Source: Bacteroidaceae bacterium (GTDB lineage: Bacteria > Bacteroidota > Bacteroidia > Bacteroidales > Bacteroidaceae). Taken from it: a stretch of 54,488 nucleotides of DNA. The position numbers were made by a program, and so were the translations under genes. Positions 1 to 23,016 of the stretch are shown one piece after another. The stretch spans positions 1-54,488 of the forward strand of contig JAFWYQ010000057.1 of NCBI GenBank assembly GCA_017517605.1, given 5' to 3'. Each line of letters starts with the position of its first letter. The stretch's first letter is position 1. Below the pieces are notes generated by a model that saw nothing but the letters and a program-made list of their open reading frames with translations, was not told where the DNA came from and made no database searches.

Positions 1-647
1 GGGGCACCTTCACCATTATAATAACAGAGAGCAGTGGAATACAGGCCTTCTTTATGGCCTTGCTCTGCAGATTTCAAAAACCACTCAAAGGCTTTTGAAT
101 AATCTTGAGGAGCACCTTCACCATTATAATAACAGAGAGCAGTGGAATACAGGCCTTCTTTATGGCCTTGCTCTGCAGATTTCAAAAACCACTCAAAGGC
201 TTTTGAATAATCTTGAGGAACTCCTTTACCATAATGATAACAAATACCTAACAGGTATTTCGCACTTAATTCACCTTTTTCTGCAGCCTTTTTTGATAGA
301 TTAAAAGCTAAAGGATAATTTACGCTTATACCTCCGTTCCCATAATAATAAAAATGTGCCAATTGGCTTTGAGCAAAAGCATCATCAGGACATTTTTTAT
401 AATATATCTCAGCCTGTTTCAAGTCTTGCTCTATTCCAGTTCCAGCTGTGTAGTAATTAGCAACCGTAAGACATGCTGATTCATCTCCTTTATCTGCAGC
501 TTTTTTAAACCATTGGAATGCTTGTTTAAAATCCTTACGATTATGGTATTCCACTCCTTTATTATACAATTCTACTGCAGATTGCGAAAATGACAATAAG
601 GATATACAATTCAACATTACCAATAATACAATTTTTTTATAATCCAT
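1..647 (-). CDS. Secreted Sel1-repeat protein, 3' end outside the window
   Basis: Reading the minus strand from the ATG at 647 gives an open frame that runs off the window edge at base 1. It begins with a short hydrophobic signal-peptide-like segment ending near LLSFSQS and continues with Sel1-like repeats of about 36 residues, recognisable by A-x-x-W/Y-F-x-K-A-A-E-x-G and G-x-G-V/A-x-x-D. Sel1 repeats form solenoids that bind proteins; no enzyme domain is visible in the part present. The start lies 12 bp behind the stop of the caspase-like gene, so it is the last visible gene of that operon and probably exported to the same compartment. The final two visible repeats are almost identical at DNA level. 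Function unknown; assignment to the Sel1 family is firm, the C-terminus cannot be judged. Confidence 0.85.
   Translation of the reverse strand, partial: MDYKKIVLLVMLNCISLLSFSQSAVELYNKGVEYHNRKDFKQAFQWFKKAADKGDESACLTVANYYTAGTGIEQDLKQAEIYYKKCPDDAFAQSQLAHFYYYGNGGISVNYPLAFNLSKKAAEKGELSAKYLLGICYHYGKGVPQDYSKAFEWFLKSAEQGHKEGLYSTALCYYNGEGAPQDYSKAFEWFLKSAEQGHKEGLYSTALCYYNGEGA
5..220. repeat. Two tandem 108-bp units, nearly identical (Sel1 repeats)
   Basis: Bases 5-112 and 113-220 are direct copies with a single difference, at the last base of the unit. The 108-bp length is 36 codons, exactly one Sel1 repeat, so the duplication preserves the reading frame of the minus-strand gene. The next repeat (from 221) is clearly diverged, so this is a recent duplication or a homogenised pair, and the array may continue beyond base 1. 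Confidence 0.9.
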
Positions 648-659
648 TTTTTAATTGTT

Positions 660-2153
660 TTAATTGTTTAAAACTCTATTTCTCCACTCATCTGACATAG
701 AAGTAACAATAGTTGGAGTTTGCAATTTGCCGTTATTTATGATTGATGATCTTCTTACTTTATCCGTTACGTAATCGGACAATTCACCTAATGTAGTATA
801 GCCTTTGCTCATTCGCAATTTCTCCAATAAATAATATGTAAACAAACCATGTTTTTTTTCATTGTATGGATAAGCAGTTTCATCTCCTTTTGAAGCTGAA
901 AGTACTACCAAATTTCCTTGTGGTTTTTCTTCCTTGACTTTAATGGCGACACCACGGGCCGAAGCCAACATATCTCCTTCGCGCTTTGATCCACTAAAGC
1001 AAGCATCTAATAATACGGTGACAGACTCAGAAGGGATGGACGACAATGTTTTGTATAATGAACTCAATCCATAGCCAGTACGGGCATTGGAACCTGTTCC
1101 ATCTACAGGTAGTAAATAAGCCGATTGAGTATTTTCGTCTGGAATGCCGTGACCTGCATAATACACCACAACTTTAGCATTCCCATTTGCTATCTGCATA
1201 TTCTGTTTCAACCAATTAAAGCCCCTACGAAGTTCTCCTAATGTTGTATCATAACCGAAACAAATCTGTTCATCAGGAATATGCAGCAGATAACGGCAAT
1301 ACAGATAAAAACCAAAACTATCATAACGGGCATAAGGGACCTTTGCAACATTTTTGTAATTCTCATTTCCTATTATCAATGCATAATTATTTTTTGCATC
1401 TATTTCTGATGATACAGATGTAATATCTATGTCATAAAGATGCTTCATAATATATGGGAAATAGTCATCAAACCCCCTTTCATAAGCTACAATCATTTCG
1501 TTACAGATATAATCCATATAATGATCAATCAGGTTGTACCAGATATCAATAGCATTCTGTTTGTCATCAAACAAAGAATAAATCTCGCCTTTTCCTGCCA
1601 AGTATTGACTTGCCATAGATCCATATTTCCCGCACTTCTCAATAGCTATGTCTATATATTTCAATGCCTCATTTTTATCTTTAAGGACACCTTCACCTTT
1701 CGCATACATGAATGCCAAATGATAGTAACCATAATCGAATCCACCTGCAATGGCTTTTTGTGTCAACTCATACGATTTCTTAAAATCTTTAGTGCAACCT
1801 ATTCCTTCCGAGTAATAAAAAGCTAATTGTCCATAAGCATGAACATTCCCATTTTCAGCAGATTTCTGACACCAATAAAATGCCAAATCGTCATTTCGCG
1901 TGGTATATTCACCGTTTGCATAACAAATGCTAACGTTATACATTGCATCTGAATGTCCCATTTCTGCGGCTTTTAACCACAATTTAAAGCCACTCTCTTC
2001 TTGTTTGTAATTGATACAATCATATCCCACACTAAAATATGCTTCAGAAGTATTCATCCTTTCTGCTTCCTGTATTTTTTCCTCTAACGTCTGTGAAAAT
2101 ATGGCATTGCAATTAAAAAAACATACAATCAATAAGAATAATAACTTTTTCAT
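660..2153 (-). CDS. Secreted Sel1-repeat / caspase-like (peptidase C14) protease
   Basis: The protein has a signal peptide (MKKLLFLLIVCFF to about residue 21), four or five degenerate Sel1/TPR-like repeats (about 35-200) and a caspase-fold domain (about 255-495). The catalytic dyad is visible: His335 in YYAGHG and Cys385 in DACFSG, both in the canonical context, and the start of the domain (YALIIGNENY) is typical of bacterial metacaspase/C14 proteins. I prefer the ATG at 2153 over the one at 2159 because it opens directly onto the signal peptide. The start lies inside the end of the upstream HEPN gene (41-bp overlap), suggesting coupled translation. C14 proteases usually cut after basic or acidic residues and are often toxic effectors or processors; the signal peptide implies that this one acts outside the cytoplasm. 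Substrate unknown. Confidence 0.88.
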   Translation of the reverse strand: MKKLLFLLIVCFFNCNAIFSQTLEEKIQEAERMNTSEAYFSVGYDCINYKQEESGFKLWLKAAEMGHSDAMYNVSICYANGEYTTRNDDLAFYWCQKSAENGNVHAYGQLAFYYSEGIGCTKDFKKSYELTQKAIAGGFDYGYYHLAFMYAKGEGVLKDKNEALKYIDIAIEKCGKYGSMASQYLAGKGEIYSLFDDKQNAIDIWYNLIDHYMDYICNEMIVAYERGFDDYFPYIMKHLYDIDITSVSSEIDAKNNYALIIGNENYKNVAKVPYARYDSFGFYLYCRYLLHIPDEQICFGYDTTLGELRRGFNWLKQNMQIANGNAKVVVYYAGHGIPDENTQSAYLLPVDGTGSNARTGYGLSSLYKTLSSIPSESVTVLLDACFSGSKREGDMLASARGVAIKVKEEKPQGNLVVLSASKGDETAYPYNEKKHGLFTYYLLEKLRMSKGYTTLGELSDYVTDKVRRSSIINNGKLQTPTIVTSMSDEWRNRVLNN

Positions 2154-2586
2154 AATCACTGCTATTTGCTTTAATTAATTGATTTATTAAGGCATATAGT
2201 AAATTTATTTCAATTTGACCTTGCATGGTTTCTTGGTCTTGCTTACCCCTATCTTGTAATGAGGCAATCCTCCCTTTTCCTTTTTTTATCAATCCATGAG
2301 CAATCGAATTTCTTATATGACGAAGCAAATGATGTACTTTATCATCTTTTGAAACTTTATCATCACGCCTTTGTGTATATAGTATTGTATATGAATATTT
2401 TTTGCTTTTCTTTCGTTCGCTATTATTCAATGCTCCTAAATATATTCTATTTGTTTTTAGAAATGTATTTAGCTCATGATGGTTTAGATCAAAAGAACCT
2501 GCCTTGTCTTTCAATTCATATTCATACAGACATAAATAGTCATATAGAGTATTCTTATCTTTCGCTGATAGTTTGTTTGAACTCAT
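2113..2586 (-). CDS. HEPN-motif protein, putative RNase or RNA-binding partner
   Basis: The 157-residue protein has no signal peptide and is predicted mostly helical. Residues 92-97 read RNSIAH, the R-x4-H signature of HEPN domains, preceded by LRHI and followed by GLIKKGKGRI as in HEPN families resembling pEK499 p136. HEPN proteins are frequently metal-independent RNases in toxin-antitoxin, Abi and CRISPR systems, although others are non-catalytic. The ATG overlaps the stop of the DUF4384-like gene by 4 bp (ATGA) and the C-terminus overlaps the caspase gene, so the three are translationally linked. It is the only apparently cytoplasmic product among the five genes, which makes it odd. Catalysis is inferred from the motif only. 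Confidence 0.65.
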   Translation of the reverse strand: MSSNKLSAKDKNTLYDYLCLYEYELKDKAGSFDLNHHELNTFLKTNRIYLGALNNSERKKSKKYSYTILYTQRRDDKVSKDDKVHHLLRHIRNSIAHGLIKKGKGRIASLQDRGKQDQETMQGQIEINLLYALINQLIKANSSDYEKVIILIDCMFF

Positions 2587-3455
2587 TTTTTTATTGTTAT
2601 TACATAATTCATACTCTGCATCTTCTTATCCCTATTCCTTCCCTTCGCCAACCACTTCTGAAACTCTTCAAAAGAGAGTTCTTGCGGAAGCAATTCATCT
2701 ACGTTGTTAGAATTAGCTTTTGCAAATTCGTTGGTGGAGAATATTATATATAAGGTGTTATGTTCTTGCGGGCGACTGCACGTCATGGTGTATTCATCTA
2801 CTAAATGAGCCTTATTACCAGCATGTTTGGCAGAGAAAAAAATGTACGGCTTATCATGTTCAATAGGAGCGACTGCCTCTGATGACCTTTTGTAGGGCAA
2901 CAAACAATAGACCATCTGACTGACATCATCGAGCAGATAGACTGTCAAGTAACCATCTACGGGTGACTGGAAGTAGAGATAGAGGTCATCACCACTCTTG
3001 AAATCAGTACGAGCAAACTTCAGGTCTGTACCGTTGCAAAGAACCTCCGCTTTGAATTCTATCTGTGCACTGACAATCTCACGGATACGTCCGCCTACAG
3101 CTACTTTTACCACCAGCATCTCCTGTTCATAACTGATGCTGTACTTGGGTTCACCAATGGTCTCAATCCACTCACCTTTCACTTCACTACCTGCCAAGGA
3201 GAAGAAATCTGTGTTTGATTCTCCGCTCTGATTGGTTACGAAAGTGGTGTTGCTTTGCGAAACTACAGTACCAAACTCGTCAGCAATGGCTTGCAACTTG
3301 GCACGTTCAAGTGCAGTACGCTTAGCGGCTTCTAAGGTTACGTTTTCTGGAGCATGATAGGTGTATTCGGCACGTACCCGCTCTGTCCGCTGTGCACAGA
3401 GCACAACAGAAAACAGTAGTAAGCATACGGTGAAAGATAACCGGAAACGTTTCAT
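2583..3455 (-). CDS. Secreted DUF4384-like protein of the caspase operon
   Basis: The 290-residue product begins with a clear signal peptide (MKRFRLSFTVCLLLFSVVLCAQ). Residues about 25-130 form an alpha/beta part with a long alanine-rich helix (AAKRTALERAKLQAIADEFG), as seen in LPP20/FlgT-like N-terminal domains. Residues about 150-250 resemble DUF4384: charged strand, DDLYLYFQSPVDGYLTVYLLD, then a strand ending CLLPYKRS. DUF4384 domains are commonly next to, or fused to, bacterial caspase-like proteases, consistent with its neighbours. It starts 6 bp after the upstream gene and overlaps the HEPN start. Likely periplasmic or surface accessory of the caspase-like protein; molecular role unknown. 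Confidence 0.7.
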   Translation of the reverse strand: MKRFRLSFTVCLLLFSVVLCAQRTERVRAEYTYHAPENVTLEAAKRTALERAKLQAIADEFGTVVSQSNTTFVTNQSGESNTDFFSLAGSEVKGEWIETIGEPKYSISYEQEMLVVKVAVGGRIREIVSAQIEFKAEVLCNGTDLKFARTDFKSGDDLYLYFQSPVDGYLTVYLLDDVSQMVYCLLPYKRSSEAVAPIEHDKPYIFFSAKHAGNKAHLVDEYTMTCSRPQEHNTLYIIFSTNEFAKANSNNVDELLPQELSFEEFQKWLAKGRNRDKKMQSMNYVITIKK

Positions 3456-3461
3456 ATCGAT

Positions 3462-4139
3462 TTACCAACCAAGAAGTTCGTCCAACTTGTTATGCAATTC
3501 ATCCCCTTTCTTTTCGAGATCTTCTTTCACGGCTTTGAGGGCTGCTTTCTTGGCCATTTCGCTGTTGTAGGCAATGCGTACAAGTACTTCTTTATTTTTG
3601 TTTTTCAAAGTGCGATATACTTCCATCACTGTAATGGTACGACCAATGCTTTGCGAAATCAAATTCTTGCTGGCCATTACACTGCGGGTCACGCTAGCAG
3701 CCTGTTCAGCATCCAATTGTTCGTTGGCTACGGTATTTTCAATCAAGGCAGTTACTTCGGTTTGAATTTGTCCTGCCAAGTTTTGCTTGGCTAATTCCAA
3801 TGCCTGCATTTTAGCAGCGTCGTAGTTGCTACCAATACTCATAGCTTCTCCCATCAAATATTTAGGGAACATATCTTCATCAAACTCCATTTGCATCATG
3901 TAAGACTTGTCGAGTTGCTTTTCCAAAGGCAGAGCACCAGGAGCGGTCTGCCAACCATCTTTTTTAAGACTTTTTGCCTCTTTGCGAGCAGCTTTCGATG
4001 CCTTTTCATTCAATTCTGTTTTTGAAGCCTTCATCAGTTCTTTACGTTCTTTGACCAATTCTTTGGCCGACTGTGCCAAACAGTCTGTTGTGGCAAATGC
4101 AAAAAGCAGTGCCATAGTGGCAATCATTACCTTTTTCAT
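3462..4139 (-). CDS. Secreted LPP20-like protein, first gene of the caspase operon
   Basis: The 225-residue product has a signal peptide (MKKVMIATMALLFAFATTDCLAQ), a lysine/alanine-rich helical stretch (about 25-60, coiled-coil-like) and an alpha/beta region in which a long helix (DAAKMQALELAKQNLAGQI) precedes strands (ISQSIGRTITVMEVYRTLK, EVLVRIAYN). This arrangement resembles LPP20 lipoprotein-type domains, but there is no lipobox cysteine at the cleavage site, so it is probably soluble or associated with the envelope through partners. It is the promoter-proximal gene and lies 6 bp ahead of the DUF4384-like gene. No enzymatic motif is visible. Confidence 0.6.
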   Translation of the reverse strand: MKKVMIATMALLFAFATTDCLAQSAKELVKERKELMKASKTELNEKASKAARKEAKSLKKDGWQTAPGALPLEKQLDKSYMMQMEFDEDMFPKYLMGEAMSIGSNYDAAKMQALELAKQNLAGQIQTEVTALIENTVANEQLDAEQAASVTRSVMASKNLISQSIGRTITVMEVYRTLKNKNKEVLVRIAYNSEMAKKAALKAVKEDLEKKGDELHNKLDELLGW

Positions 4140-4862: not shown

Positions 4863-4985
4863 GCTTAAGCGTGGCTGAATAACGCTTAAGACTTAGTTTG
4901 GTAACGCTTAAGCGTTACCAAATTATCGCTTAAGTGATTTCTTGCTAACGCTTAAGTGATTTTTCACTAACGCTTAAGTGATTTC
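4863..4985. repeat. CTTAAG array with 21/22-bp period, locus 1
   Basis: CTTAAG occurs at 4864, 4885, 4907, 4929, 4951 and 4973, giving intervals of 21, 22, 22, 22 and 22 bp. Each unit is mostly of the form AACGCTTAAGYG followed by a variable AT-rich spacer. The array lies in the gap between the minus-strand caspase operon promoter region and the 3' end of the GH35 gene. A matching array is at 18816-18920. Confidence 0.85.
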
Positions 4986-5075
4986 TCGGCAGATTTTACG
5001 GATTTGCATTCTATCTGATTATCAGCTACATAAAGGAATTGTTATTCATATATAAAAGCAATAATAAACGGCTTG

Positions 5076-5195
5076 GGAAGTGAATAACTGTTCACTTGTC
5101 GAGCCGTTAACTGTTCACTTCCCAAGCCGTAAGTTATTCACTTGGGGTAGCCGTAAGTAGTTCACTTGGGTAAGCCGCTAACTGTTCATTTCAAA
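5076..5195. repeat. TTCACTT / GCCGT array with 23-24-bp period
   Basis: TTCACTT (or TTCATTT) occurs at 5091, 5114, 5137, 5161 and 5185, and AGCCGT/AGCCGC alternates with it at 5103, 5126, 5150 and 5174, all with 23-24 bp spacing. A single inverted unit (CGGCTTGGGAAGTGAA) begins the array at 5080. No gene is seen here. Confidence 0.8.
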
Positions 5196-19552: not shown

Positions 19553-19576
19553 TTGTTTCCTAAAACCAATTATCAA

Positions 19577-20926
19577 ATGACAAAATTAAAGTATTTGCAG
19601 AATTTTTTGATTCTGCTGTTTGTCGGCTCTGCGTTGTGTGCAGTGCAGGCATGTGGTGACGATGAAGAGGATGAACCGATTCAAGAACCGAACGAAGAAG
19701 AAGTGGTGAAACCTGATGAAGAACCTAACAAAAAGCCCGGTGACGAGAATGAGAATCATTCATATGACAATGGTGAAATTGCTAAAATATTTAGAGGTAC
19801 GGGAACGGAAAATGACCCATATATCATTAGCTCGGCTGCAGAGCTAAGAAAGCTTGCAAATGATGTTAATTCTGGGATGAAATATAAAGGAGAATATTTT
19901 AGGATGACAAAGAATATCACTTTCAATAGGAATGTCTTAGATGAGGAGGGAAATCTTAAAGGACACCCCTCTGAATATGACGTATGGACTCCTATTGGGG
20001 CTGGCGATAATACTTCATTTAATGGCATATTCGATGGAGGTGGTTTTACAATCTCTGGATTATATATTCCTTCTGGTAGTTTATTTGCAAACATCCCAAC
20101 ATTAAAGAACTTGACATTAAAAGATTCTTATATTGGATCAGGTGCATTTGCGGGTAACTCCGGAACGATTATTAATTGTCATAATTATGCCACTGCTGTT
20201 TATGGAATAACATACTCAAATAGAGGACTTATAGAAAAATGTTCTAATTACGGAAGATGTTCAAAAGCTGGAATCGCTTTTCGGTGCTGGGGTGTTGTTA
20301 ATGAAACCTTGAATGCTGGAATTGTAGATGGAGTGGGATTTGTTGATCAAATGTTCGGTGAAATTCGCAATTCTGCCAATCTTGGTATTGTTTCTTCTTA
20401 TGGTTTTTCACATTATTTACATGACGAAGGAGAGTTATATCCTGATAATAACCCTCATAAATATCCTGCAAGAATCAGAAATTGTTTAAATGCAGGAAAA
20501 ATTAAAAGTGAATCAGAAAAAACAGCATTTGCAGGATTTTGCTATGTAATAAGTTCATTAGTGGACGACCTAGACATGTTTATAGAAAACAATGTCAATT
20601 ATGCAGAATGTGAAGTTGCGGATAAAGAGAACACAGTAGGTATTGTGTATAGATGTGCTCAGCCTAGATCTAATAAATCATGCATTTATATTAGCAATAA
20701 TTATTATATTGAGACTTTTTCCCATATTCCATGGAGCGATTATCGAAATTGGTTATCGGATGTCAATAAATGGGAAGCTGAGAATAATAGGTGCCTTTCT
20801 GCTAAAGAAATGAAAGAGGATTCTTTCTTAGATGAATTAAATGCGAATGCAAGAAAATTAGGGGCAGATTATTGCAAATGGAAAAAAGGAAAAGGCGGTT
20901 TGCCAATTTTGGAATGGATGGAATAA
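19577..20926 (+). CDS. Surface lipoprotein with GLUG-like beta-helix repeats
   Basis: The 449-residue protein starts at the ATG at 19577 with a lipoprotein signal (VGSALCAVQAC) and an acidic, proline-rich linker (DDEEDEPIQEPNEEE...). The body has a pattern seen in Bacteroidetes GLUG-type surface proteins: GTGTENDPYIISSAAELRKLA, FRMTKNITFNR, WTPIGAGDNTSFNGIFDGGG, FTISGLYI, then beta-helix-like turns with N-x-G and C-x-N (INCHNYATAVYG, RNSANLGIV, RNCLNAGKI). It probably sits on the outer membrane surface. Its first 55 residues are almost the same as those of the frameshifted gene at 22256. It follows the structured RNA closely. Confidence 0.7.
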   Translation: MTKLKYLQNFLILLFVGSALCAVQACGDDEEDEPIQEPNEEEVVKPDEEPNKKPGDENENHSYDNGEIAKIFRGTGTENDPYIISSAAELRKLANDVNSGMKYKGEYFRMTKNITFNRNVLDEEGNLKGHPSEYDVWTPIGAGDNTSFNGIFDGGGFTISGLYIPSGSLFANIPTLKNLTLKDSYIGSGAFAGNSGTIINCHNYATAVYGITYSNRGLIEKCSNYGRCSKAGIAFRCWGVVNETLNAGIVDGVGFVDQMFGEIRNSANLGIVSSYGFSHYLHDEGELYPDNNPHKYPARIRNCLNAGKIKSESEKTAFAGFCYVISSLVDDLDMFIENNVNYAECEVADKENTVGIVYRCAQPRSNKSCIYISNNYYIETFSHIPWSDYRNWLSDVNKWEAENNRCLSAKEMKEDSFLDELNANARKLGADYCKWKKGKGGLPILEWME

Positions 20927-20988
20927 TTTTAAATTTATAGAAAAATATTGTATAACGTCCCTGTTAAGGGACACAACTAAATTAATGT

Positions 20989-21609
20989 ATGAGAAAAAAT
21001 AATTTTAAAAGACTTGCAGTGTGCTTGTCATTGGTTGCAGTAAGTATTTCTATGGTTGCACAAGATGCGCCTGTCAATTCACAGAATCCAACTACAGTTT
21101 ATTCCGCCAGCGATGACATTGTTGACAATTCAGACAAAGTAACAGTTGGATATGGTAGTCTTGATTATTACAATTTTGACAATGGATTTACTAATCTTAA
21201 CTATTGGGGATTTACTTTGGGCGCATTTAGCTATACAGGTGGTGGAATGGAATTGAAAATGAAAACTTGTTTTGACTCAGAACCTGGTTCGGGATGTGGA
21301 GTAGACTTATTACTCAACTATTCTGTAGGCTTAACAAGAAAGAATGATAATATGTTGTGTCTGCATGCCAAAGCAGGTCCTTCATTGATGTGGTGGACCA
21401 AATATAAACCGGGGAAGTACATTGGTATAGAAAGTGACGGGCATAAATTTACCGTAGATTGTGTTCTTTCTCTTGGTCTGATAGGTCGTGTCGGTAAATT
21501 TGCTGTTTCTGGTGGATACAATTGGTGGTTCAACAAATTCAAATTCAAAGAAGAGAATATGGTCGACGGCCTATGGGTGTCAGTTGCTTATTGTATGAAC
21601 TCTAAATAA
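20989..21609 (+). CDS. Small secreted outer-membrane-like protein, unknown function
   Basis: The 206-residue product has a signal peptide (MRKNNFKRLAVCLSLVAVSI to about 24) and then alternating hydrophobic and polar stretches rich in Gly, Tyr and Trp (NYWGFTLGAFSYTGGGMELKM, GVDLLLNYSVGLTRK, VLSLGLIGRVGKFAVSGGYNWW), ending VSVAYCMN as expected for a small eight-stranded-type barrel. I recognise no family. It is 62 bp after the GLUG-like lipoprotein and 8 bp before the next gene, so it is in the same cluster. Confidence 0.55.
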   Translation: MRKNNFKRLAVCLSLVAVSISMVAQDAPVNSQNPTTVYSASDDIVDNSDKVTVGYGSLDYYNFDNGFTNLNYWGFTLGAFSYTGGGMELKMKTCFDSEPGSGCGVDLLLNYSVGLTRKNDNMLCLHAKAGPSLMWWTKYKPGKYIGIESDGHKFTVDCVLSLGLIGRVGKFAVSGGYNWWFNKFKFKEENMVDGLWVSVAYCMNSK

Positions 21610-21617
21610 TAAAAAAT

Positions 21618-22208
21618 ATGAATAAGATTAAGTTTTTATCATCCATGTTACTTCTGATAGTAATGGGATTTATATTTGCGACTTGTTCCGATTCTGATTC
21701 TGACTCGAGCGGAAATAGTGGATTGAAAGGATGGTACTTGAATTTGAACAGTGTGGCTAAACAGTCTGATTTTGATGAAATCAATAAAGCTATACGGAAT
21801 AAAGAAGTACTGACATCCTACAAATATAATGAATATATAGCATCGCGTGATTTGTTTATCAATAGTGATGGTAGTTACAATGATTCAGATTCTCATTTTG
21901 GTCGATTACGTTTTAGTATTGATTTTTTAATTAATGTTGTTCGCATTTTAGACGATCAGACATTGGTGTTTTACATTGGCCACCTATATGAAGATGGCGC
22001 AAGCCATAATGAAGCTCTTTATACTTTCTATGCAGGCAGTATATTCGGTAATATGACTTATTATGGTACTCCTACTTATTACACCTACGCTAAAGTTGGT
22101 AACAAACTGATCGTTAGCAATGGAGATGTTTATACCGTTACATCAAATGGCCTGATTAAAGACGGAAGTTCTGCCATTTGGAGTAAATATGACCCAAAGA
22201 AGAGGTAA
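21618..22208 (+). CDS. Small lipoprotein, unknown function
   Basis: The 196-residue protein has a lipoprotein signal peptide ending in FATC with a Ser/Asp-rich linker (SDSDSDSSGNSG), a pattern typical for Bacteroidetes surface-exposed lipoproteins. The body is predicted mainly beta, rich in Tyr, Asp and Asn, without known motifs. It begins 8 bp after the preceding stop. AT content is higher than in the neighbouring housekeeping genes, like the rest of this cluster. No function can be assigned. Confidence 0.5.
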   Translation: MNKIKFLSSMLLLIVMGFIFATCSDSDSDSSGNSGLKGWYLNLNSVAKQSDFDEINKAIRNKEVLTSYKYNEYIASRDLFINSDGSYNDSDSHFGRLRFSIDFLINVVRILDDQTLVFYIGHLYEDGASHNEALYTFYAGSIFGNMTYYGTPTYYTYAKVGNKLIVSNGDVYTVTSNGLIKDGSSAIWSKYDPKKR

Positions 22209-22255
22209 ACAAATGCATCAACAAAACATTTATTAATTCTTTAAAAAACATTTAA

Positions 22256-23016
22256 ATGAAAACATTAAAGTATTTGCAGCGATTTTTTATCCTGCTGTTT
22301 GTAGGCTTTGCGTTGTGTGCAGTGCAAGCATGTGGTGACGATGAAGAGGATGAACCGATTCAAAAACCTGAAGAAGAGGAAGTGGTGAAACCTGATGATG
22401 AAGAAGAAAAAGATGAATCAGACACTTTTACCGGAACTATCAATGGACATGAATGGATAGACCTCGGCCTCTCTGTAAAATGGGCGACTTGTAATGTAGG
22501 TGCTTCCAAGCCAGAAGATTACGGAGGCTATTACGCTTGGGGAGAAGCCACAACAAAGAGCGATTGCAGTTGGAAAACGTACAAATGGGGCAAGGGAACA
22601 GATGACACCATGACCAAATACTGTACAGATAATGACTATGGCACGGTGGATAACCGTACCAAGTTGACCTCTTCCGACGATGTAGCTACCGTGAAATGGG
22701 GTAGCAAATGGCGTATGCCGACCAAAGAGGAATTGGAAGAACTGTGTGATGAATGCACTTGGAATGGACTACCCAAAGCGGAGTTGATGGAATGAAAGTA
22801 ACAGGCCCTAATGGTAATAGTATCTTCTTGCCTGCTACGGGCTACAAAGACGGTACGGTTATCGACGAGCGTGGCTCGTACGGTGCCTACTGGTCTGCTA
22901 CGTTGGACGAGGACTACAACAACTTTGCATTTAACCTCAGCTTTTATGACAGCCGCTGTAACCATTACAGCGACTACCGTTACAGCGGATTTGCCGTTCG
23001 CCCTGTCACTGAATAG
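22256..23016 (+). pseudogene. Frameshifted lipoprotein with FISUMP domain
   Basis: The first frame (22256-22795) encodes a lipoprotein signal, the acidic linker and the start of a Fibrobacter-succinogenes-major-paralogous (FISUMP) domain: WIDLGLSVKWATCNVGASKPEDYGGYYAWGE and WGSKWRMPTKEELEEL. After CTW at about 22762 the frame switches; the other frame continues with EWTTQSGVDGMKVTG, NSIFLPATGY and AYWSATL, ending with SGFAVRPVTE at 23016, which is the usual end of the domain. A single missing base between 22762 and 22765 explains it. Either a recent mutation, a sequencing error or phase variation. Its first 55 residues nearly match those of the gene at 19577. Confidence 0.8.

Follow-up and report, generated by a model that had tools for sequence, protein, structure and literature searches.

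HEPN ribonucleases (RNases) are usually met within cytosolic defence or toxin-antitoxin units. Of the described families, the one closest to the protein considered here is that of pEK499_p136 (PF18736), to which a table of Anantharaman et al. 2013 (PMC3710099) assigns the R-x4-H motif and restriction-modification (R-M), ART, Macro, NamA and Pgl neighbours; for other, inner-membrane-anchored HEPN domains the same paper proposes that surface signals could lead to RNA degradation. Caspases of the C14 type are described in conflict systems in which HEPN is also listed as an effector (PMC7159879, PMC8195603). Here we consider a locus in which members of both groups lie side by side, at the start of a contig from a Bacteroidaceae bacterium (JAFWYQ010000057.1; the window is this entire contig, G000:C59, 54,488 bases, from a genome 80.5% complete). 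Five co-oriented open reading frames (ORFs) encode an exported LPP20-like protein, an exported DUF4384 protein, a HEPN protein, an exported caspase with Sel1 repeats and a further exported Sel1-repeat protein. A first-pass annotation of this DNA had read them as a single system. Comparison with related loci (designated by L numbers, and their genomes by G numbers) points instead to two stories, a caspase operon with recurrent and variable parts of its own and a family of HEPN genes that lie beside genes for exported repeat proteins, which meet in this window.

The recurrent parts of the caspase operon are apparent from the relatives of its DUF4384 gene, which 17 of the 121 genomes from its bacterial family carry (its own included), at 20 places besides the window. 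A caspase gene is found in 17 of these 20 regions, an LPP20-like gene in 11, and in 12 a gene for a recurring exported protein, mostly 480–750 aa and with repeated segments of the type F-R-x-x-x-N-x-x-Y, that we label FR. The HEPN gene is in none of them when any frame of at least 40 aa is considered (best E 0.07, from a 59-aa frame), nor in 20 additional regions hand-picked from the best caspase places, and is thus found in 0 of 40 related regions, which are not independent of each other (several per genome, one bacterial family) and some of which are cut by contig ends. A place for HEPN in the core of the operon was rejected on this count, and the five-gene order, whose conservation the first-pass annotation had suggested as a check, is not conserved; what follows DUF4384, up to the next fixed gene, differs from locus to locus.

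This variation has a definite location. DUF4384 and FR lie on the same strand within 9 kb of each other in 16 of the 40 regions, and the slot between them is empty in seven (1–228 bp) and loaded with one to four genes in nine, one of which is doubtful. There are several features of the loaded slots. First, their genes have a lower G+C content at third codon positions (GC3) than the LPP20, DUF4384 and FR genes in 9 of 9 cases (Wilcoxon p 0.004), or 8 of 8 without the doubtful L029, where the middle gene (211 aa) is weakly LPP20-like and the difference is marginal (57% vs 58%); in L026 the caspase has a GC3 of 43% and its neighbour 30%, against 43% for the flank. Second, the contents are diverse, including caspases with LRR_5 or Sel1 N-termini, outer-membrane barrels (L026 and L267, above cut-off), a pentapeptide protein (L272), unknown proteins and one Abi_2 gene. 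This Abi_2 gene is on the opposite strand (L025:1813-2706; GC3 47% vs a flank mean of 61%), and a conflict-type gene has therefore entered the DUF4384–FR slot elsewhere too. Third, the caspases themselves vary at their N-termini: among 40 related caspase ORFs, 17 have LRR_5 repeats by a home-built profile and four have Sel1 repeats. The nearest counterpart of our locus is L266, with the order LPP20, DUF4384, 347-aa gene, Sel1-caspase, FR, in which the 347-aa gene stands at the position of HEPN and has an exported-type leader; the Sel1-caspases of L259 and L266 are 37% identical to that of the window over nearly the full length.

The same contrast in composition is seen in the window, where GC3 is 19.0 in HEPN, 29.7 in the caspase and 23.7 in Sel1, compared with 44.7 in DUF4384 and 43.4 in the LPP20-like gene. 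The mean over the 42 window ORFs of at least 150 aa is 50.6 (s.d. 12.3), and HEPN has the lowest value of all 42. In position and composition the HEPN, caspase and Sel1 genes look like slot cargo behind LPP20-like and DUF4384. The idea that these three were gained together as a single AT-rich block was dropped when L266, L267 and L273 were seen to have AT-rich slots more widely. AT-rich blocks are also not unique to the caspase operon, as a second is present in the same window at 19.6–22.2 kb.

The HEPN protein has a separate set of relatives. It scores 22.1 bits against PF18736, short of the gathering score of 26.6 that its relative L047 reaches, and 8 of 16 HEPN members, including that of the window, match this family at E 0.01. 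Residues H90, R92, N93, H97 and D112 are invariant in all 16 aligned sequences, among them the R-x4-H motif noted at first pass, an invariance that is partly circular as a profile search favours motif carriers. Of the two results that the first-pass annotation would have taken as refutation, homologues without HEPN are observed and an unconserved R-x4-H is not. We place the protein close to PF18736, as a divergent relative whose neighbourhood is new. A single-sequence search of 61 genomes found it only in its own, and profile searches identified members in 14 and then 21 of 399 genomes of the bacterial family and in 6 of 393 of the order (its own included each time); a search of genome contigs yielded one Segatella copri relative (39% identical) with no caspase relative nearby. 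Collections of plasmids and phages gave no match at the search sensitivity chosen, nor did viral contigs, and a plasmid, phage or viral cargo was rejected within those limits. A sequence search of the PDB found nothing and fold searches gave no assignment. No MNT antitoxin gene adjoins HEPN at the window locus, where the neighbours are DUF4384 and the Sel1-caspase.

What recurs beside these HEPN genes is a gene for a BspA-type protein with LRR_5 repeats. Within the bacterial family, 17 of 22 HEPN places have such an ORF no more than 1.5 kb away, as does 1 of 6 in the order, counted with a profile home-built from eight sequences, seven of them from HEPN loci; Pfam's own LRR_5 model (PF13306) scores above cut-off in 8 of 10 neighbours tested, and the held-out places, found only after the pattern had been noticed, have LRR_5 within 1.5 kb in 6 of 8. 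Control loci in the same bacterial family behave differently, with LRR_5 within 1.5 kb at only 1 of 30 AbiH and 1 of 30 Abi_2 loci (Fisher p 1.9e-8 vs each), each set being the subset of 30 returned by the search tool and including some loci shortened by contig ends. A general linkage between Abi genes and LRR_5 was rejected accordingly, and AbiH and Abi_2 are themselves patchy (26 and 54 of 121 genomes). Genes were called throughout by a longest-ORF rule with ATG starts, by which small genes may be missed, and the membrane, lipoprotein, R-M and sigma-factor labels described as made by eye are eye judgements alone. In the tree of HEPN sequences the window protein groups with the LRR_5-linked L062 (support 96/90) and, more widely, with L047, L063 and L064 (93/93, below the tool's star mark). 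The puzzling mixture of cellular locations that had been pointed out in the window is therefore real and repeated, but it is tied to HEPN beside exported LRR_5 proteins and not to caspases: no caspase or Sel1 relative is near HEPN in any of 29 other HEPN regions (414 ORFs), and a recurrent HEPN–caspase pair was rejected.

The HEPN–LRR pairs are often tight, with 10 of 17 overlapping or separated by 40 bp or less and 4-bp overlaps in L066 and L074. HEPN neighbours without LRR_5 include genes that appear by eye to encode lipoproteins (L047, L105, L106 and L108). In all of 27 loci the GC3 of HEPN is below the mean of the other surrounding genes. The pairs are also exchangeable. Two LRR lipoproteins of genome G351 match at 96% of 402 residues, yet the HEPN proteins encoded beside them (L071 and L111) are only 30% identical, the two loci sharing 97% DNA identity across about 1.6 kb before they diverge; in G338 (L074 and L119) two LRR genes have identical 60-residue leaders, one beside HEPN and the other beside a 258-aa protein without a Pfam match. 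On the 3′ side L071 and L111 are again similar, and a role of this flank as a cassette border was considered but dropped, as the stretch is a scattered intergenic repeat (L071:6340-6640) with 14 partial matches in G351, lying downstream of both HEPN–LRR loci. No HEPN gene was found in 40 further LRR_5 regions (45 LRR_5 ORFs), hand-chosen to exclude known HEPN neighbours. The TIGR04183 type IX sorting domain reaches its cut-off in 1 of 10 LRR proteins tested (L114), and for the others a surface location is therefore suggested by leader and family.

Several single cases at LRR_5 loci are recorded here as observations; a general rule drawn from those of conflict-type genes is not borne out by the AbiH and Abi_2 controls. 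Other genes adjacent to LRR_5 are a putAbiC gene that overlaps its LRR_5 neighbour (L140:3046-5632), an AbiH gene 62 bp after one (L156:3354-6388), a RES gene (L073) and a DUF2971-like gene (L112) that is below the Pfam cut-off and scores 80.5 bits to the PADLOC model PDC-S31. In L069 the gene directly after HEPN (L069:4845-6874) encodes a leaderless, apparently cytosolic fusion of a PLD-nuclease domain with LRR_5 repeats. In L114 (L114:5915-7512) two small genes downstream of HEPN resemble, by eye, a Panacea-type antitoxin and its partner.

We propose, with a probability of roughly 55%, that HEPN is cargo in the variable slot of an exported-caspase operon, an accessory conflict-type RNase from a family that travels with surface-gene cassettes. 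The comparison shows a fixed pair, LPP20-like and DUF4384, followed in part of the relatives by the variable slot and then by the exported FR; in the window, the front of such an operon from a presumably Prevotella-like host, HEPN, Sel1-caspase and Sel1 occupy the position after DUF4384, the contig ending before any FR. The exported products would have their site of action in the envelope or at the cell surface, with the variable repeat domain perhaps picking the cleavage target of the caspase. HEPN would stay in the cytoplasm, a captured accessory RNase that would most likely serve in conflict, by RNA cleavage of an abortive-infection or toxin-like kind, and would share no pathway with the protease. 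We infer that HEPN is an active RNase, that the caspase does its work once exported from the cytoplasm and that there is no joint action of the two.

A number of observations weigh against this proposal. First, HEPN overlaps its neighbour at either end, which suggests that translation is coupled, and a simple passenger would have no need of this. Second, AbiH and Abi_2 hardly associate with LRR_5, and a generic defence hitchhiker alone therefore leaves the HEPN–LRR_5 pairing unexplained. Third, 5 of the 22 HEPN places lack LRR_5 within 1.5 kb: L063; L065, at a contig edge with an apparent LRR-protein tail upstream; L068, where HEPN has a 4-bp overlap with an exported-type transpeptidase gene; L116, the only case in which HEPN adjoins genes resembling R-M by eye; and L118, a doubtful match with stops. 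Fourth, with LPP20-like and FR in just 11 and 12 of 20 DUF4384 regions, the genes termed fixed are not fixed everywhere. Finally, the AT-richness could reflect weak constraint instead of transfer. Within the slot data, the Abi_2 gene of L025 slightly favours the interpretation as cargo and the doubtful L029 slightly weakens the slot count.

A less likely alternative is that HEPN is the dedicated cytosolic partner of the adjacent exported repeat protein, co-translated with it, and would act on its own cassette, either by cleaving the mRNA or by guarding synthesis or export, firing when this is disturbed (e.g. by phage); the window would then be a case with the Sel1-caspase as the exported partner. 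The 17 of 22 LRR_5 neighbours compared with 1 of 30 in each control, the short spacings and overlaps (including that with the transpeptidase gene in L068), the lipoprotein genes beside other HEPN genes and, in the window, the overlap of HEPN by DUF4384 and caspase from both sides are all as this would predict. The pairs, however, are not fixed, since LRR leaders 96–100% identical accompany different HEPN proteins (L071/L111) or none (L074/L119), HEPN is rare among LRR_5 genes (0 in the 40 hand-chosen regions) and the leaderless L069 fusion indicates that some partners are not exported. Generalized, the same view would make a two-part Bacteroidales system of a cytosolic HEPN RNase co-translated with an exported surface repeat protein (LRR_5, lipoprotein or caspase), with interchangeable HEPNs, in which the production or export of surface proteins is coupled to RNA cleavage (for phage guarding or surface-antigen tuning) and the window is the first protease case; we consider this unlikely. 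The strongest evidence against a pure passenger is the specificity relative to AbiH and Abi_2 together with the tight overlaps, and the strongest against a dedicated partner is the partner swapping together with the rarity of HEPN among LRR_5 genes.

An improbable alternative is neutral hitchhiking, in which AT-rich surface-gene slots are recombination hot spots where HEPN genes accumulate. The abrupt change from a shared leader to unlike bodies in L071 and L111 and the many kinds of AT-rich cargo in slots would suit it, but the similarly patchy AbiH and Abi_2 lie near LRR_5 in only 1 of 30 loci each, and such genes are therefore not gathered there at random. The original proposal of one integrated self-destruction or stress system, with exported caspase and cytosolic HEPN as joint effectors, can draw on co-orientation, overlaps and the intact active sites of both proteins but is very improbable: none of the 40 related regions has HEPN, the 414 ORFs of the 29 HEPN regions include nothing related to the caspase or to its Sel1 part, caspase and HEPN are predicted to reside in separate compartments, and Pfam detects neither STAND nor TIR nor cyclase domains in the five genes.

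The features of the locus are listed in Table 1. The array on one strand with small gaps and overlaps was correctly described at first pass: in the order of transcription, LPP20-like is separated by 6 bp from DUF4384, which overlaps HEPN by 4 bp; HEPN overlaps the caspase by 41 bp (from its ATG; the GTG at 2159 is an alternative start), and a gap of 12 bp precedes Sel1. The five ORFs are co-oriented as had been said, although the operon as seen comprises four complete genes and a partial fifth, with more genes perhaps lost beyond it: Sel1 is broken by the contig end (the contig begins at base 1) within near-identical 108-bp tandem repeats (4–242), which may have caused the assembly to stop.

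Table 1. Features of the caspase operon and its active-site codons (window coordinates)
Feature	Position	Strand	Remarks
LPP20-like exported protein, 225 aa	3462..4139	-	operon gene 1; ORF and relatives; no Pfam family above cut-off
DUF4384 exported protein, 290 aa	2583..3455	-	PF14326 25.1 bits, cut-off 27
HEPN protein, 157 aa, without signal peptide	2113..2586	-	PF18736 E 1.3e-4, below cut-off
HEPN motif RNSIAH	2313-2296	-	R-x4-H intact
Exported Sel1-repeat caspase (C14), 497 aa from ATG 2153	660..2153	-	PF08238 76 bits and PF00656 68.3 bits, both above cut-off
Catalytic His337 codon of caspase (499-aa numbering from GTG 2159)	1149..1151	-	identical in 16/16 aligned
Catalytic Cys387 codon of caspase, DACFSG (499-aa numbering)	999..1001	-	identical in 16/16 aligned
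Exported Sel1-repeat protein, at least 215 aa, cut by contig end	3..647	-	PF08238 135.3 bits

A hydrophobic N-terminus resembling a signal peptide is present in four of the five products, HEPN being the exception, by a simple hydropathy score and no dedicated predictor; at least three had been called before. The caspase assignment with its intact His and Cys likewise stands (the PF00656 cut-off is 21.4 bits, and the dyad is invariant in all 16 aligned sequences, window included). Among PADLOC's models of anti-phage defence components, a caspase model gives 33.8 bits, and HEPN reaches only 13–15 bits to the CARF-HEPN, RTasHEPN and HamC models. DUF4384 in the window misses its gathering score, which a 61%-identical relative, L024, passes (27.4 bits). 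The LPP20-like gene has 11 relatives (33–84% identical), and in none of the 12 members scanned at E 0.01, window included, was LPP20 or another curated Pfam family matched; the AlphaFold2 model (pLDDT 79.7) has as its best PDB match 5ok8, Helicobacter pylori Lpp20 (Foldseek probability 0.99, E 0.01, TM 0.27/0.49), and the name is used because of this fold match alone. FR is weakly transglutaminase-like in the member L266 (E 0.0085) and the FR-like L036 (E 0.013), both below cut-off, and a PDB sequence search with FR gave a single match (E 0.023).

Three further arrangements are noted. In L033 (L033:4786-8666) two FR-type genes, directly after LPP20 and DUF4384, flank a sigma-factor-like gene (by eye) and a small partner. 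Upstream of the operon in the window, positions 4880–5190 are non-coding with short tandem repeats (22-bp units at 4927–4987 and units of about 23 bp at 5085–5188); Rfam has no matches in the window. The second AT-rich block (19553–22795) encodes small exported-type proteins (GC3 27–32% at 19577–22208), and the lipoproteins starting at 19553 and 22256 have a nearly identical leader and acidic stretch with different bodies, resembling the constant-leader LRR genes.

The main value of these comparisons is the separation of two stories that had been merged, that of the caspase operon and that of HEPN beside surface proteins. A HEPN family repeatedly encoded with surface proteins would either connect the cell surface with RNA cleavage or show that conflict genes are carried by surface-gene cassettes, and the caspase operon, whose ends recur while its AT-rich slot varies, points to a caspase domain that may decide its substrate. 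What had been called an uncharacterised system survives as a module that recurs, an exported caspase accompanied by LPP20-like and DUF4384 proteins, not as five genes forming one system, and this operon is of a kind not found described in the literature searched. Neither the HEPN–surface-protein pairing nor an LPP20/DUF4384/caspase operon was found among the titles and abstract openings listed by the searches, a coverage that leaves out most subscription journals.

The known systems that resemble parts of the locus are four. First, the HEPN protein shares with the pEK499_p136-like family the R-x4-H motif, the length, a weak but direct profile match and the occurrence as a stand-alone gene in mixed neighbourhoods, but most members here adjoin LRR_5 proteins, and R-M-like neighbours (by eye) are seen only in L116; the words "leucine-rich" and "caspase" are absent from the main text of PMC3710099. 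The proposal made there for membrane-anchored HEPN domains resembles the two-part interpretation of HEPN and surface protein, but concerns, in the text concerned, fused membrane proteins and not a separate exported partner. Second, BspA-type LRR_5 proteins (PF13306) are represented in 8 of 10 tested HEPN neighbours and 17 of 40 related caspases, whereas the window caspase carries Sel1 repeats. Third, the predicted fold of the LPP20-like protein finds its best PDB match in Helicobacter pylori Lpp20 (5ok8), yet at 16% identity, E 0.01 and a TM-score of 0.27 by query this protein is not a member by sequence. Finally, the C14 caspases of conflict systems, as covered in the text of PMC7159879 and PMC8195603, have a caspase domain with the same His/Cys dyad but occur with cytosolic-type NTPase, vWA-MoxR, STAND and death-like adaptor partners; in the text of PMC7159879 LPP20 and DUF4384 are absent and Sel1 appears once, with peptidoglycan-associating domains, whereas the window caspase has a leader and exported partners.

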